A stretch of 64,000 bases of DNA from Falsirhodobacter algicola (GTDB lineage: Bacteria; Pseudomonadota; Alphaproteobacteria; Rhodobacterales; Rhodobacteraceae). The stretch is taken from the NCBI RefSeq assembly GCF_018279165.1, contig NZ_CP047289.1:186001-250000 (forward strand), in the 5' to 3' direction. The notes beneath the pieces are model-generated. The model was not told the origin of the DNA, did no database searches, and saw only the letters and a program-made list of their open reading frames with translations. The translations under genes were made by a program, and so were the position numbers. Of the stretch, positions 2,191-32,488 are shown piece by piece (positions within the stretch are counted from its first letter, which is position 1; the number at the start of each line of letters is the position of its first letter).

Positions 2191-3084
2191 ATGGCCAGCT
2201 ACACAAACCTTCCTGCTCCGTCCCCCGAACAGGGGCTGAACCGCTACATGCAGGAGATCCGCAAGTTCCCCCTGCTGGAGCCGGAGGAGGAGTACATGCT
2301 GGCCAAACGCTGGGTGGATCATCAGGACTCGGGGGCCGCGCACCGACTGGTCACCTCGCACCTGCGCCTCGCGGCCAAGATCGCCATGGGCTATCGCGGC
2401 TATGGCCTGCCGCAGGCCGAGGTCATCTCGGAGGCCAATGTCGGCTTGATGCAGGCGGTGAAGCGGTTCGACCCCGAAAAGGGCTTCCGCCTTGCGACCT
2501 ATGCGATGTGGTGGATCCGCGCCTCCATTCAGGAATACATCCTGCGCTCGTGGAGCCTCGTGAAGCTCGGGACCACCAGCGCGCAGAAGAAGCTGTTCTT
2601 CAATCTGCGCAAGGCCAAAGCCAAGGTCGGCGCGCTGGAGGAAGGCGATCTGCGCCCCGAGAACGTGGCCCGTATCGCCACCGACCTGAACGTCACCGAA
2701 GACGAGGTCATCTCCATGAACCGCCGGATGGCGGGGGCGGACGCCTCGCTCAACGCCACGGTCGGATCCGAAGACGGCGGCGCGCAGTGGCAGGACTGGC
2801 TGGAGGACGAGGACAGCGATCAGGCCTCTGACTATGCCGAGCGGGACGAGTTGGAAGCCCGGCGCGAATTGCTGATGCAGGCGATGGACGTTCTGAACGA
2901 CCGCGAGCGGGACATCCTTGCACAGCGCCGCTTGGCCGATGAGCCGGTGACGCTGGAGGATCTGTCCGAGACCTATGGCGTCAGCCGCGAGCGCATCCGC
3001 CAGATCGAGGTGCGCGCCTTCGAGAAGCTTCAGGCCAAGATGCGCGAATTGGCCCGCGGCAAGGGGATGGCCATCCCGGCCTGA
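2191..3084 (+). CDS. rpoH: RNA polymerase sigma-32 factor RpoH
   Basis: Alternative sigma factor of the heat-shock and, in Rhodobacter, photo-oxidative stress response. The 297 residues show region 2 ('NVGLMQAVKRFDPEKGFRL' and 'YAMWWIRASIQEYIL'), the RpoH box 'QKKLFFNLRK' that separates it from housekeeping sigma factors, and the region 4 helix-turn-helix 'SETYGVSRERIRQIEVRAF'. ATG 2191 is preferred over the in-frame ATG at 2179 because GGAGG (2181-2185) sits five bases before it. Rhodobacterales often carry two paralogues, RpoHI and RpoHII; the sequence alone does not tell me which this is. The CcsR-like RNA array at 30.5 kb belongs to a class that depends on these factors. Confidence 0.95.
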   Translation: MASYTNLPAPSPEQGLNRYMQEIRKFPLLEPEEEYMLAKRWVDHQDSGAAHRLVTSHLRLAAKIAMGYRGYGLPQAEVISEANVGLMQAVKRFDPEKGFRLATYAMWWIRASIQEYILRSWSLVKLGTTSAQKKLFFNLRKAKAKVGALEEGDLRPENVARIATDLNVTEDEVISMNRRMAGADASLNATVGSEDGGAQWQDWLEDEDSDQASDYAERDELEARRELLMQAMDVLNDRERDILAQRRLADEPVTLEDLSETYGVSRERIRQIEVRAFEKLQAKMRELARGKGMAIPA

Positions 3085-27369: not shown

Positions 27370-27444
27370 TGGAGCGGGCGAGGCGATTCGAACGCCCGAC
27401 CCTAACCTTGGCAAGGTTATGCTCTACCCCTGAGCTACGCCCGC
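27370..27444 (-). tRNA. tRNA-Gly (anticodon GCC), copy 1
   Basis: A complete cloverleaf with encoded CCA: acceptor GCGGGCG/CGCCCGC, anticodon loop with GCC inside ACCTTGCCAAGGT, and T loop TTCGAAT. It is identical to the copy 96 bases away. Confidence 0.97.
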
Positions 27445-27465: not shown

Positions 27466-27540
27466 TGGAGCGGGCGAGGCGATTCGAACGCCCGACCCTA
27501 ACCTTGGCAAGGTTATGCTCTACCCCTGAGCTACGCCCGC
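27466..27540 (-). tRNA. tRNA-Gly (anticodon GCC), copy 2
   Basis: Identical to copy 1 over all 75 bases including CCA. On the minus strand it is transcribed first, with a 21-base spacer between the genes. Confidence 0.97.
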
Positions 27541-27892: not shown

Positions 27893-28160
27893 ATCCGAAT
27901 CTCCATCTCGATCTGTTTCGTTCGGAGGCGTTCCGGCCTTCCTTGGAATAGATCTAAGTCGCCACGCCGCGAAGGTCAAGAAAAAAGTGTAATGTTTCCA
28001 ATATGTTGACAGGTTTACTCAGCTTTGGCGCCCCAAGTTTTTCGGTCGGGAATGAAAGCAAATCGCTCAGGCTTCGGCCAAGCGTCTGACGGGAAACGCC
28101 AATAGGGCGAACAGAATGCGAACGCTTCCAATCCGCCGCACAAGGGGCTATCTTGCGGGC

Positions 28161-30506
28161 ATGACCGGATCCGATGATTTCGACGCCTTCGAGGCCGCCG
28201 TTCCCTTGAGCCAGCGCGCGATGGCGCAGCGCCCGGCCCCCTATCTGGACGATCTGAACCCCGCGCAGCGCGCGGCGGTGGAGGCGCTGGATGGGCCGGT
28301 GCTGATGCTTGCCGGCGCGGGCACGGGCAAGACCAAGGCGCTGACCTCGCGAATCGTCCACCTTCTGACGACGGGGCGCGCCCGCCCGAACGAGATCCTT
28401 GCCGTGACCTTCACCAACAAGGCCGCGCGCGAGATGAAGGACCGCGTCAGCCGGATGCTCGGCGGGATGGAGGGGATGCCGTGGATGGGCACCTTCCATT
28501 CCATCAGCGTGAAGATCCTGCGCCGTCATGCCGAATTGGTGGGGCTGAAATCGAACTTCACCATCCTCGATACGGACGATCAGATCCGCCTTCTGAAGCA
28601 GCTGATCGTCGCCGCCAATATCGACGAGAAACGCTGGCCCGCACGGATGATGGCCGGGCTGATCGACGGCTGGAAGAACCGCGCATGGACCCCGCGCGCC
28701 GTGCCCGCCGCCGAGGCCGGGGCCTTCAACCATCGCGGCACCGAGATCTACGAGCAGTATCAGGACCGTCTGCGCGCGCTGAACGCCGTCGATTTCGGCG
28801 ATCTGCTGCTGCATGTGCTGACGATCTTTCAGGCGCATCCCGACGTGCTGGCCCAGTATCAGCGCTGGCTGCCCTATATCCTCGTGGACGAATATCAGGA
28901 CACGAACACCGCGCAGTATATGTGGCTGCGGCTTTTGGCGCAGGCGCATCGCAACATCTGCTGCGTCGGCGACGACGATCAGTCGATCTATGGCTGGCGC
29001 GGGGCCGAGGTGGGCAACATCCTGCGATTCGAAAAGGATTTCCCCGGTGCGGCGGTGATCCGGCTGGAACAGAACTACCGCTCTACCGAACATATCCTCT
29101 CGGCGGCGTCGGGCGTGATCGCGGCCAATGCGGGGCGCCTCGGCAAGACCCTCTGGACCGAAGCGCGCGGCGGCGAGAAGGTCCGCCTGATCGGCCATTG
29201 GGACGGCGAGGAAGAGGCCCGCTGGATCGGCGAAGAGGTGGAGGCCATGAGCCGCGGCACGCGCGGGATGGCACCGCTCGGCCTCGACGGTATGGCGATC
29301 CTCGTGCGCGCCTCGCATCAGATGCGCGCCTTCGAGGATCGGTTCCTGACGATCGGCCTGCCGTATCGCGTGATCGGCGGCCCGCGATTCTACGAACGGC
29401 TCGAGATTCGCGACGCGATGGCCTATTTCCGGCTGGCGGTGTCGCCCGATGACGATCTCGCGTTCGAGCGGGTGGTGAACACACCCAAGCGCGGCCTTGG
29501 CGACAAGGCACAGCAGTCGATCCAGCGCACCGCGCGCGAGGCTGGGCTGCCGCTTCTGGAAGGGGCGCGGGCGCTTTTGGCGCAAGGCGGGCTCGGCGGC
29601 AAGGGCGCGGGGCAGTTGCGCCAGTTCGTCGAAGGGGTGGATCGCTGGCACGCGGCCACGCTGCGCGGTCAGAGCCATGTCGAACTGGCGGAAACGATCC
29701 TCGACGAATCCGGCTATACGGCCATGTGGCAGAACGACAAGACGCCCGAGGCGCCGGGACGGCTCGAGAACCTCAAGGAACTCGTGAAGGCGCTGGAGCA
29801 GTTCGAGAATCTGCAAGGCTTCCTCGAACATGTCGCGCTGATCATGGACAACGAACAGGCCGAAAGCGGTGAGAAGGTGTCGATCATGACCCTGCATGCC
29901 GCCAAGGGGCTGGAGTTTCCGGCGGTGTTCCTGCCGGGGTGGGAAGACGGGCTCTTCCCCTCGCAGCGGGCGATGGACGAAAGCGGGCTGAAGGGCCTCG
30001 AGGAAGAGCGCCGCCTTGCCTATGTCGGCATCACGCGGGCCGAGCAGGTGTGCACCATCTCCTTCGCGGCGAACCGGCGCGTCTATGGGCAATGGCAATC
30101 GGCGCTGCCGTCGCGTTTCGTGGATGAACTGCCCGCCTCGCATGTGGAAGTGCTGACCCCGCCCGGCCTGCATGGCGGCGGCTTTGGCGCGGCGGCCCCC
30201 ACGGCGATGGATCAGCGCGTGGCCAGTGCCGATGTCTACAACTCTCCCGGTTGGCGGCGGATGCAGGGCCGCGCCACGGCCCGCCCGATGGCCCAACCGC
30301 GCGAGGCGACGGGCATCGTCATCGATCTGCAGGCGGTGGCGAAGTTCACCGAAGGCGACCGGGTGTTCAATCGCAAGTTCGGCTATGGCACCGTGCAGGC
30401 CGTCGAGGGGGATAAGTTGGATGTCGCCTTCGACAAGGCGGGATCGAAGAAGATCGTCGCCAGCTTCGTCGTCGCGGCCGATCAGGCGGATGACGTGCCG
30501 TTCTGA
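28161..30506 (+). CDS. uvrD: UvrD/PcrA-type DNA helicase
   Basis: Superfamily 1A 3'-5' helicase for nucleotide excision and mismatch repair and for removing proteins from DNA. Of 781 residues, Walker A is 'AGAGTGKT' at 51-58. 'GTFHSISVKILRR', 'VDEYQDTN' (motif II), 'GDDDQSIYGWRGAE' (motif III), 'EQNYRS' (IV) and 'MTLHAAKGLEFPAVFLPGWEDGLFP' (V, in part) follow. The C-terminal end has a Tudor-like 'GDRVFNRKFGYGTVQAVEGDKL' that contacts RNA polymerase in PcrA. ATG 28161 is chosen by similarity; ATG 28116 is in frame but unlike the family. The 268 bases upstream hold no further gene I can support. Confidence 0.94.
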   Translation: MTGSDDFDAFEAAVPLSQRAMAQRPAPYLDDLNPAQRAAVEALDGPVLMLAGAGTGKTKALTSRIVHLLTTGRARPNEILAVTFTNKAAREMKDRVSRMLGGMEGMPWMGTFHSISVKILRRHAELVGLKSNFTILDTDDQIRLLKQLIVAANIDEKRWPARMMAGLIDGWKNRAWTPRAVPAAEAGAFNHRGTEIYEQYQDRLRALNAVDFGDLLLHVLTIFQAHPDVLAQYQRWLPYILVDEYQDTNTAQYMWLRLLAQAHRNICCVGDDDQSIYGWRGAEVGNILRFEKDFPGAAVIRLEQNYRSTEHILSAASGVIAANAGRLGKTLWTEARGGEKVRLIGHWDGEEEARWIGEEVEAMSRGTRGMAPLGLDGMAILVRASHQMRAFEDRFLTIGLPYRVIGGPRFYERLEIRDAMAYFRLAVSPDDDLAFERVVNTPKRGLGDKAQQSIQRTAREAGLPLLEGARALLAQGGLGGKGAGQLRQFVEGVDRWHAATLRGQSHVELAETILDESGYTAMWQNDKTPEAPGRLENLKELVKALEQFENLQGFLEHVALIMDNEQAESGEKVSIMTLHAAKGLEFPAVFLPGWEDGLFPSQRAMDESGLKGLEEERRLAYVGITRAEQVCTISFAANRRVYGQWQSALPSRFVDELPASHVEVLTPPGLHGGGFGAAAPTAMDQRVASADVYNSPGWRRMQGRATARPMAQPREATGIVIDLQAVAKFTEGDRVFNRKFGYGTVQAVEGDKLDVAFDKAGSKKIVASFVVAADQADDVPF

Positions 30507-30541
30507 TCGGCGGGCCGCTACAGACCATCTGACAAAAAGAA

Positions 30542-30579
30542 AACGGCGGCGCCCAGGGAGGAGGAGGGGCGCCGCCGTT
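30542..30579 (-). terminator. array unit 1: hairpin doubling as Rho-independent terminator
   Basis: A perfect 13-bp stem (AACGGCGGCGCCC with its complement) closes the standard 12-nt loop. On the minus strand it is followed by TTTTCTTTTTG, so this last hairpin both displays the CCUCCUCCC loop and ends the transcript. It lies between the array and the convergent uvrD gene. Confidence 0.92.
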
Positions 30580-30589
30580 CTGTCACGTC

Positions 30590-30613
30590 CGGCCCAGGGA
30601 GGAGGAGGGGCCG
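30590..30613 (-). ncRNA. array unit 2
   Basis: Stem of six pairs (minus strand CGGCCC with GGGCCG) around the CUCCUCCUCCCU loop; tandem G-A mismatches lie outside it. Confidence 0.85.
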
Positions 30614-30623
30614 TCGTTCTGAT

Positions 30624-30659
30624 GGAACATCACCCAGGGAGGAGGAGGGGCGACATTCC
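30624..30659 (-). ncRNA. array unit 3
   Basis: Twelve pairs, GGAATGTCGCCC with GGGTGATGTTCC, including three G-U pairs. On the plus strand these would be A-C mismatches, so the stem is only intact in minus-strand RNA. Confidence 0.9.
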
Positions 30660-30688
30660 GACCTGCGGCCGCCGGGGAGGAGGTCGGC
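30658..30688 (-). ncRNA. array unit 4 (variant)
   Basis: The loop is shortened: minus strand GCCG-ACCTCCTCCC-CGGC. A competing perfect 7-bp stem CCGACCT/AGGTCGG (30658-30664 with 30681-30687) would bury part of the motif. This is the most divergent unit. Confidence 0.65.
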
Positions 30689-30702
30689 AACCGTAGAAGG
30701 TA

Positions 30703-30734
30703 AGCGACGCCCAGGGAGGAGGAGGGGCGCCGCT
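30703..30734 (-). ncRNA. array unit 5
   Basis: Ten pairs, AGCGGCGCCC with GGGCGTCGCT, one of them G-U, around the standard loop. Confidence 0.9.
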
Positions 30735-30741
30735 CGATCCG

Positions 30742-30769
30742 CGGCGGCCAGGGAGGAGGAGGGCCGCCG
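30742..30769 (-). ncRNA. array unit 6
   Basis: Perfect 8-bp stem CGGCGGCC/GGCCGCCG around the standard loop. Confidence 0.9.
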
Positions 30770-30781
30770 GAGGAAAGATGT

Positions 30782-30815
30782 ACGGCGATCCCAGGGAGGA
30801 GGAGGGGATCGCCGT
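30782..30815 (-). ncRNA. array unit 7
   Basis: Perfect 11-bp stem ACGGCGATCCC/GGGATCGCCGT around the standard loop. Confidence 0.9.
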
Positions 30816-30820
30816 TGGAA

Positions 30821-30852
30821 CGATCGGCCCAGGGAGGAGGAGGGGCCGTCCG
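30821..30852 (-). ncRNA. array unit 8
   Basis: Inner stem CGGCCC/GGGCCG, extended by three more pairs (one G-U) past a single A-A mismatch, around the standard loop. Confidence 0.87.
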
Positions 30853-30886
30853 TACTTCGTCTGGAGCGCGAGGCTCCGAATAGGGT

Positions 30887-30920
30887 GCGGCAACATCAGG
30901 GAGGAGGAGGATGTCGCCGC
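30887..30920 (-). ncRNA. array unit 9
   Basis: Eleven pairs, GCGGCGACATC with GATGTTGCCGC, one of them G-U on the minus strand, around the standard loop. A 34-base spacer separates it from unit 8, the widest in the array. Confidence 0.9.
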
Positions 30921-30928
30921 GTTTCTCG

Positions 30929-30952
30929 AGGCCCAGGGAGGAGGAGGGGCCC
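30929..30952 (-). ncRNA. array unit 10, first after the DUF1127 stop
   Basis: Six pairs, GGGCCC with GGGCCT, the outermost G-U, around the standard loop. It starts 10 bases after the DUF1127 stop codon. Confidence 0.85.
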
Positions 30953-30962
30953 GTCGAAATTC

Positions 30963-31172
30963 TTATGCGCCGAAGGCCGCGTCGCGGGCGATGGAGCGGA
31001 TCTCGCTCCGACGGATGCCCAGATCGGTGAGTTCGCGGCTGGACAGGGCGTTCAGTTCCTGTACCGTCTGACGGTAGATCGCGCGGCGGCGCAGAGCGGC
31101 CTTGAGCGTGTCCAGCGAGAAGCTGATACGGCCGGGGCCAGCGATCGTGCCGGTATAGATTGCTTGTGCCAT
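30963..31172 (-). CDS. DUF1127 small RNA-associated protein (CcaF1-like)
   Basis: A 69-residue, Arg-rich protein starting MAQAIYTGTIAGPGR. The C-terminal DUF1127 motif 'ELNALSSRELTDLGIRRSEIRSIA' (in part) is complete. In Rhodobacter sphaeroides the homologue CcaF1 is an RNA-binding protein encoded ahead of the CcsR RNAs and affects their processing. ATG 31172 has GAGG nine bases upstream; the frame is open further upstream but has no family similarity there. I found no convincing RpoH-type promoter in the 263-base divergent region to mrp, so regulation by RpoH is inferred from Rhodobacter. Confidence 0.92.
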   Translation of the reverse strand: MAQAIYTGTIAGPGRISFSLDTLKAALRRRAIYRQTVQELNALSSRELTDLGIRRSEIRSIARDAAFGA

Positions 31173-31335
31173 TTTGAGCCTCGTTTGCTTCGCGTCCTGC
31201 GCCGAACCGGATTGTCCTGCGCTGTTGAAGACAATTTGGCCCGTGGGGGTCGCGGGCACAATCCCGGAAACCGGCAACTCCGCCATGCGCGGTCCGCATG
31301 GCTTGCACGGCGCTGTTGGACCTCCTGAGGGCAGG

Positions 31336-31435: not shown

Positions 31436-32488
31436 ATGTCATCGTTGCGCGAATCCGTCCTTGCGGCCCTTGGCGGGATCGAGGTTCCGGGCGGAACGCT
31501 CCTGTCGCGGGACATGGTGCGCGCCTTGGCCGTGGAAGGCGGCTCCGTCCGCTTCGTGATCGAGGCCCCCACCGCCGAGGAAGCCCGCATGATGGAGCCG
31601 CTGCGCCGCCTCGCGCAGGCCCGGGTCGAGGCGTTGGAGGGTGTGACCGCCGTTTCGGTGATCCTGACGGCCGAAAGCGCCGCCCCGACGCTGAAGATGG
31701 GGCGCCATCCGACGCCGCAGGCCGGACCGCAGCCGGTGCCGGGGGTGAAGCGCATCCTCGCCATCGGTTCGGGCAAGGGCGGGGTGGGTAAATCCACCGT
31801 CTCCTCGAACCTTGCGGTGGCACTGGCGCGGCAGGGGCGAAAGGTCGGCCTTCTGGATGCCGACATCTATGGCCCCTCGCAGCCGCGGATGATGGGCGTG
31901 TCGAAAAGGCCCGCCTCGCCGGACGGCAAGACGATCATCCCGCTTCAGGCGCATGGCGTCACCATGATGTCGCTGGGCCTGATGGTGAAGGAGGACGAGG
32001 CCGTGATCTGGCGCGGCCCCATGCTGATGGGCGCGCTTCAGCAGATGTTGGGTCAGGTCGCATGGGGGGAGCTGGATGTCCTGCTGATCGACCTGCCGCC
32101 CGGTACGGGGGATGTGCAGATGACGCTGTGCCAGCGCACGCATGTGACGGGCGCGCTCGTCGTGTCCACCCCGCAGGACGTGGCGCTGCTGGATGCGCGC
32201 AAGGCGCTGAACATGTTCGAGCGTCTGAACACCCCCATTCTTGGCCTGATCGAGAATATGAGCAGCTATGTCTGCCCCAGTTGCGGGCATGAGGCGCATA
32301 TCTTCGGCCATGGCGGCGTGGCGACCGAGGCGGAGCGTCTGGGTCTGCCCTTCCTTGCGGAACTGCCGCTGGACCTGTCGGTGCGGCTGGCCGGCGATGC
32401 GGGAACGCCGGTGGCGGCGGGCGAGGGGCCGGTGGCGGATGCCTATGCCGCTTTGGCCGCCCGCCTCGTGGCGGATGGTGTGGCCTGA
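31436..32488 (+). CDS. mrp: Mrp/ApbC family iron-sulfur cluster carrier ATPase
   Basis: P-loop ATPase that carries [4Fe-4S] clusters to apoproteins. The 350-residue protein has an N-terminal DUF59/MIP18-like domain (about 1-80), the deviant Walker A 'GKGGVGKS' at 113-120, '[16 protein letters not shown]' and '[13 protein letters not shown]'. The cluster motif CPSCG follows 'IENMSSYV'. GGAG precedes ATG 31436. It is divergent from the DUF1127 gene. Confidence 0.95.

Follow-up and report, generated by a model that had tools for sequence, protein, structure and literature searches.

The window, a stretch of 64,000 nt from the Falsirhodobacter algicola genome, carries on its minus strand a series of hairpins with a common loop sequence directly behind a DUF1127 gene. 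The sequence-only reading took these hairpins for a CcsR/cuckoo RNA array expanded to an unusual copy number. The locus raises the questions of whether ten loops are exceptional in this family, what the loops would do and what would switch their expression on.

The hairpin array and its two-hairpin unit

The array spans 30537-30953 on the minus strand and is composed of ten hairpins, each with the core CCUCCUCCC in its loop (10/10); the coordinates given earlier, 30541-30955, were right to within a few bases. The 12-nt loop CUCCUCCUCCCU (CTCCTCCTCCCT as DNA) is identical in nine of the ten hairpins, and the exception is hairpin 7 with the variant loop ACCUCCUCCC (ACCTCCTCCC as DNA). The first bases of the 9-mer CCTCCTCCC on this strand are located at 30944, 30907, 30840, 30802, 30759, 30722, 30683, 30645, 30605 and 30564. 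The motif-to-motif distance is 37-43 nt with a single exception of 67 nt between hairpins 2 and 3, and the stems measure 6-17 pairs when at most one mismatch is allowed in the count. All ten motifs have an unpaired probability of 1.0 (two decimals) in the predicted ensemble of the array, and no array larger than two arose in 20 Markov resamplings of the minus strand of the window or in 400 such resamplings of related loci. Motif positions, stems, unpaired loops and chance controls agree on ten minus-strand hairpins with nine identical loops, as had been read from the sequence. The host gene and the elements of the array are listed below.

30963-31172, minus strand: CcaF1-like DUF1127 gene of 69 aa at the head of the operon (PF06568, E = 9.2e-13)
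30927-30953, minus strand: hairpin 1, loop CUCCUCCUCCCU
30887-30920, minus strand: hairpin 2, forming unit 1 with hairpin 1 (CcsR1 match 30882-30962, 56.1 bits)
30863-30877, minus strand: small motif-free hairpin GGAGC-CUCGC-GCUCC, read from the sequence, in the long stretch that links unit 1 to unit 2
30820-30853, minus strand: hairpin 3
30782-30815, minus strand: hairpin 4, forming unit 2 with hairpin 3 (CcsR1 match 30777-30858, 48.9 bits)
30739-30772, minus strand: hairpin 5
30702-30735, minus strand: hairpin 6, forming unit 3 with hairpin 5 (CcsR1 match 30697-30777, 34.3 bits)
30662-30697, minus strand: hairpin 7, variant loop
30624-30659, minus strand: hairpin 8, forming unit 4 with hairpin 7 by position only
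30590-30613, minus strand: hairpin 9
30537-30584, minus strand: hairpin 10, presumed terminator, a GC-rich stem followed by TTTTCTTTTT, forming unit 5 with hairpin 9 (CcsR1 match 30538-30623, 47.7 bits)

The order of DUF1127 gene, ten motif hairpins and terminator-like end is read directly from the sequence. The Pfam match confirms the DUF1127 gene that had been placed upstream of the array, and its stop codon lies about 10 nt upstream of hairpin 1 on the same strand. The gene is matched in 7/7 congeneric genomes with an array behind it in each (7/7), and a comparable small motif-free hairpin was seen by eye in 5/7 congeners. Hairpin 10 with the following TTTTCTTTTT looks like the terminator of the array. 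A scan of the locus for sigma-70 promoters and terminators gave no matches; hairpin 10 is absent from the terminator scan because the scan admits only loops of 3-8.

The surroundings of the operon were named by eye. A UvrD-like helicase frame (28116-30506, plus strand) is convergent with the array, with about 30 nt between its end and the presumed terminator, and an Mrp/ApbC-like frame (31436-32488, plus strand) is divergent to the operon. Two tRNA genes at 27373-27444 and 27469-27540 (minus strand) are 24 nt apart, have the same Rfam score and the same aligned letters, and their anticodon was read by eye as GCC (glycine).

The reference model for the family is Rfam RF02791 (CcsR1), which describes 83 nt with two hairpins and has a gathering score of 65.3. 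This covariance model matches hairpins 1+2, 3+4, 5+6 and 9+10 with E-values from 7.8e-13 (1+2) to 1.4e-6 across different searches; no CcsR1 match is listed for hairpins 7+8 (unit 4). All scores in the window are at most 56.1 bits and thus below 65.3, which is why the gathering scan of the window lists no CcsR1. RS0680a is described as two stem loops with the motif in each (PMC3927594), and RSs0680a-d are equated with CcsR1-4 in an excerpt from PMC5036791. Since one CcsR RNA has two loops, ten loops correspond to five CcsR-like RNAs, and five is the number to set against four. Hairpins 3-10 are nearly evenly spaced in the window, so it is the model and the sequence type, and not the spacing, that support the two-hairpin phase. 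Sequence type was assessed in 76 arrays of at least four hairpins, where GCGGC, GGCGG or GGCGA occurs in the 5' arm of 252/328 even-numbered and 113/355 odd-numbered hairpins, a difference reached by 0/5000 within-array shuffles. The hairpin count is even in 49/76 of these arrays. Cereibacter johrii and Luteovulum azotoformans each have four close pairs 105-114 nt apart, with a CcsR1 match of 106.2 bits; in C. johrii a short second contig, which may be a duplicate from the assembly, repeats the same four pairs.

The locus shares with CcsR1-4/ccaF1 of Rhodobacter (Cereibacter) sphaeroides (RF02791, CIN1) the DUF1127 gene, tandem RNAs that can be read as two-hairpin units, CCUCCUCCC loops and the presumed terminator, and the assignment to the CcsR/cuckoo family and the CIN1 locus holds, with four of the five units fitted by the CcsR1 model below its gathering score. 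It differs in its count of five units against four, in the lack of long linkers between most of them and in the lower model scores; C. johrii and L. azotoformans stand in for R. sphaeroides in this comparison. A conserved loop motif on variable stems is likewise shared with the cuckoo RNAs, which PMC4504443 describes as having 2-4 hairpins; the array here has ten, which would be two per unit if it is cut as in CcsR. The ar14/NfeR1/SmelA075 RNAs of Rhizobiales (RF02344) have the same CCUCCUCCC loops, and hairpins 8-10 score 57.7 bits against that model, under its gathering score of 58.8. Those RNAs are described as having three hairpins each and their own promoter, whereas the RNAs in the window lie behind the DUF1127 gene on one presumed transcript.

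Pairing was analyzed in 302 distinct units with a 12-nt loop, among which the motif is invariant. Stem positions 4-11 are standard-paired in 55-83% of units compared with 40-47% expected, all 11 stem positions lie above all 300 shuffles, and GC, CG, AU and UA pairs are all present. Sliding the 3' arm mostly lowers pairing. The arrays that supplied these units had been detected through their stems, and their sequences are not independent of each other by descent; both facts inflate the excess, so it is not to be read as a probability. The hairpin structure is under selection.

Array size among relatives

The exact motifs per locus number 10 (window), 6, 9, 8, 10, 11 and 11 in the seven congeneric genomes. 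A wider sample was taken from 106 confirmed DUF1127 loci, the best 80 of which were used; this set is weighted towards Paracoccus, and some second DUF1127 copies and contig ends are among its members. At 75/80 of these loci the array has four hairpins or more, with a median size of 9 and a maximum of 17. Ten or more hairpins are found at 37/75 array-bearing loci in this best 80 of 106, and ten is the commonest size (17/76 arrays). The hairpin detector permits one motif mismatch; a ninth hairpin that it counted at locus L062 was judged false, and it misses some hairpins at locus L130. In 18 other genera of this family, one or more close motif pairs were seen in 11 genomes, and one genome has a run of 15 motifs.

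The covariance model gave the same picture. Among 61 family genomes drawn, matches to CcsR1 at E <= 0.001, counted with stricter filters that lose some of them, occur in 49/61 and number up to seven per genome. At least four are found in 20/61, the window's genome among them. One of 14 control genomes gave a CcsR1 match, and this lay below the cut-off. The gathering score itself is attained in 4/61 family genomes; the Rfam threshold is passed by so few that the CcsR1 model looks narrow for this family.

These counts do not uphold the copy number as unusual. Relatives often have 8-12 loops and routinely reach ten or more, and the earlier reading had set ten loops against four RNAs. Loops are not to be counted as RNAs, and once RNAs are compared with RNAs there is nothing out of the ordinary about the locus. 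The array is a real, well-formed representative of a known arrangement, and its size is normal for its relatives.

Two other loci have layouts of note. The Paracoccus saliphilus array (L130) contains three near-identical copies of a multi-hairpin segment together with motif copies that the detector did not pick up, a pattern read as recent segmental duplication within the array. At locus L028 (genome G013), less than 3 kb holds four DUF1127-like matches, which are both separated and followed by motif loops.

Loop function, candidate targets and rival explanations

The array loop is complementary to AGGGAGGAGGAG, an extended Shine-Dalgarno sequence, which bears out the earlier description of the loop as an anti-Shine-Dalgarno motif. 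We consider it likely, and hold with good confidence, that the locus is a ccaF1-ccsR (CIN1) operon with five tandem two-hairpin RNAs whose loops silence mRNAs. One transcript would contain the DUF1127 mRNA followed by five CcsR-like RNAs, the last ending in the terminator. In the CcsR literature covered, RNase E is reported to cut CcsR1-4 from the ccaF1 transcript, and by the same published route RNase E, aided by the DUF1127 protein, may free the two-hairpin units here. The exposed CUCCUCCUCCCU loops would then pair with Shine-Dalgarno sites rich in purines, GGGAGGAGG and its variants, and keep translation from starting. As the loops hardly differ from each other, additional units should increase the dose without adding specificities.

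It is unlikely that the multi-loop RNA acts mainly as a sponge or decoy that titrates a G-rich sRNA, Hfq or the DUF1127 protein instead of silencing mRNAs directly. Many near-identical exposed loops would suit that role, and the binding of CcsR RNAs to Hfq is reported in the excerpts of PMC8307010 and PMC5036791. However, NfeR1 has the same loop motif and silences directly, its three identical CCUCCUCCC loops being described as functionally redundant in silencing ntrB (PMC10746234), and flhR mRNA is a reported CcsR1-4 target. The array would also form the 3' untranslated region of the DUF1127 mRNA and ends in a terminator-like hairpin, so its hairpins might protect and terminate that mRNA with no loop action in trans. 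Protection alone, however, needs no invariant loop motif amid varying stems, and the R. sphaeroides CcsR RNAs are described as acting in trans; we regard an exclusive role at the mRNA 3' end as very improbable.

The tandem, palindromic and GC-rich character of the array is also what a dispersed or selfish (REP-like) repeat or a coding repeat might show, but there is one array in the genome and arrays stand behind the same gene in all seven congeners, and an origin of either kind is extremely improbable. The hairpin detector found no other array within the window, and no second array was found elsewhere in the genome. The 9-mer occurs elsewhere in the genome as scattered copies, and the 12-mer has one further genomic copy (C1:1150711), which lies inside a znuA-like coding sequence; a dispersed repeat was rejected on these grounds. 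A coding repeat was rejected because the loop spacing is not throughout a multiple of three in any of the seven congeners and no single frame is open in all.

Candidate targets of the mRNA-silencing loops were sought as ATG starts behind an exact 9-mer, and shorter seeds and other start codons are missed because the search was limited to these. The sequence GGGAGGAGG followed 3-11 nt on by ATG gave 49 listed sites compared with four for the reversed pattern in the seven congeners, a count to which ordinary Shine-Dalgarno use contributes and which includes four sites on the arrays' own antisense side. Two of the six sites in the window's genome precede plausible full genes, which encode a DctQ-type TRAP subunit and ManD (assigned by an NCBIfam equivalog, mannonate dehydratase). 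The predicted pairing of the loop is -25.0 kcal/mol with the dctQ start region and -22.6 kcal/mol with the manD start region, compared with -15.3 and -15.4 kcal/mol for the 16S tail. Pairing of the loop with the start region of the DUF1127 gene itself is poor (-5.3). The DctQ-type TRAP transporter gene at G000:C1:981458 and manD at G000:C3:114567 are the candidate targets in this genome. There are 29 candidate target frames of at least 60 aa, of which 22 have Pfam domains and 8/22 are uptake transporters, compared with 1/14 among control frames behind another strong Shine-Dalgarno sequence (20/21 scanned, L206 left out). This transporter excess is not significant (p = 0.06, and 0.21 without orthologue duplicates).

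The promoter and its LysR-type box

The LysR-type box in the region upstream of the DUF1127 gene is a more interesting point than the size of the array. Common to the seven congeners in this region are a dyad, GGATTGTGC and CAACAG, and alignment of 64 promoters of the sample gave the following layout.

31282-31302, minus strand: perfect dyad GCCATGCG-N5-CGCATGGC with the LysR-type box geometry T-N11-A, VtlR/LsrB-like, kept in 7/7 congeners
31256-31265, minus strand: GGGATTGTGC, presumed -35 region; the distance from box to TTGTG is 22-23 nt in 62/64 aligned promoters
31230-31239, minus strand: CCAAATTGTC, presumed -10 region, of the CATNTT type in many relatives; its offset of 23 from TTG is fixed in 59/64
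31219-31229, minus strand: TTCAACAGCGC, presumed transcription start region, with CAACAG kept in 7/7 congeners

Promoter counts cover 74 of the 80 loci; six whose match did not start at base 3001 (L053, L063, L090, L093, L102 and L110) were dropped, though some had enough upstream DNA. ATGC-N7-GCAT lies upstream of 58/74 DUF1127 loci, against a mean of 2 and at most 6 of 74 in a Markov null, and its background varies from 1 per 394,217 nt in the same loci to 7 per 189,163 nt in other loci from the genus, with 4 in the window. The reverse-complemented Brucella VtlR motif (taken from an excerpt of PMC12595884) is found with at most three mismatches upstream of 59/74 loci, compared with 1/74 in the Markov null and 1/73 in control stretches; elsewhere in the loci there are 11 such matches in 394,217 nt. 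A VtlR-like site upstream of DUF1127 genes is, at the level of the clade, shared with the VtlR/LsrB-controlled DUF1127 genes and AbcR2 of Brucella, but the window's own site is degenerate with 4/15 mismatches. The null reaches that level in 12/74, so the dyad and its conservation carry the case for the window.

Related boxes are described in two Rhizobiales. S. meliloti LsrB is reported to bind TGCA-N6-GCAT upstream of nfeR1 (PMC10746234), and the A. tumefaciens box is given as GCAT-N3-TG-N3-T (PMC7486931). The latter is contained in the Brucella VtlR motif, and the commonest form in the loci analyzed here has AG for TG. Within the papers covered, a redox-responsive LysR-type regulator is tied to such RNAs and DUF1127 genes in Rhizobiales only. 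The fixed-spacing box in CcsR-locus promoters, which resembles the site of such a regulator, is a candidate link between the two groups. In the literature found on LsrB with Rhodobacter and sRNA, and on CIN1 with DUF1127, no LysR-type box was linked to CcsR loci; this coverage does not extend to the main papers on CcsR and cuckoo RNAs, so the link may already be in print.

The CcsR1-4 operon is reported to have an RpoHI/RpoHII promoter, and for a sister DUF1127 promoter the RpoH-type motif has been published as TTG plus TAT. The second promoter element in the window is CAAATT, and relatives have a rigid TTG ... CATNTT-type arrangement. Expression of the array is probably stress-induced, from an RpoH-type promoter with the LysR-type box upstream. 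A wider proposal, to which we give belief and doubt in equal measure, is that the VtlR/LsrB redox regulon, known from Rhizobiales, includes the CcsR/CIN1 arrays of Rhodobacteraceae. In both orders a single LysR-type regulator would then stand over anti-Shine-Dalgarno sRNAs (NfeR1, AbcR, CcsR) as well as DUF1127 proteins, and the number of two-hairpin units would set an adjustable dose by which uptake transporters are switched off during oxidative stress. A LysR gene next to trxB, which we take to be a sign of LsrB, was not seen in the trxB neighbourhood of the window's genome.

The pattern CATGC-N7-GCATGGC has 11 matches at 9 sites in the window's genome, several of them inside coding sequences. 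At one of these sites, G000:C1:508269-508287 (L217), a dyad of the same type precedes the start codon of a second DUF1127 gene by about 100 nt; this gene, the only other one found in the genome, has no motif array. A further dyad (G000:C1:639859-639879, L218) lies upstream of a short gene, with the protein start MADFIDSSAF, that adjoins a UreG-like gene, and this short gene is a possible further member of the regulon.
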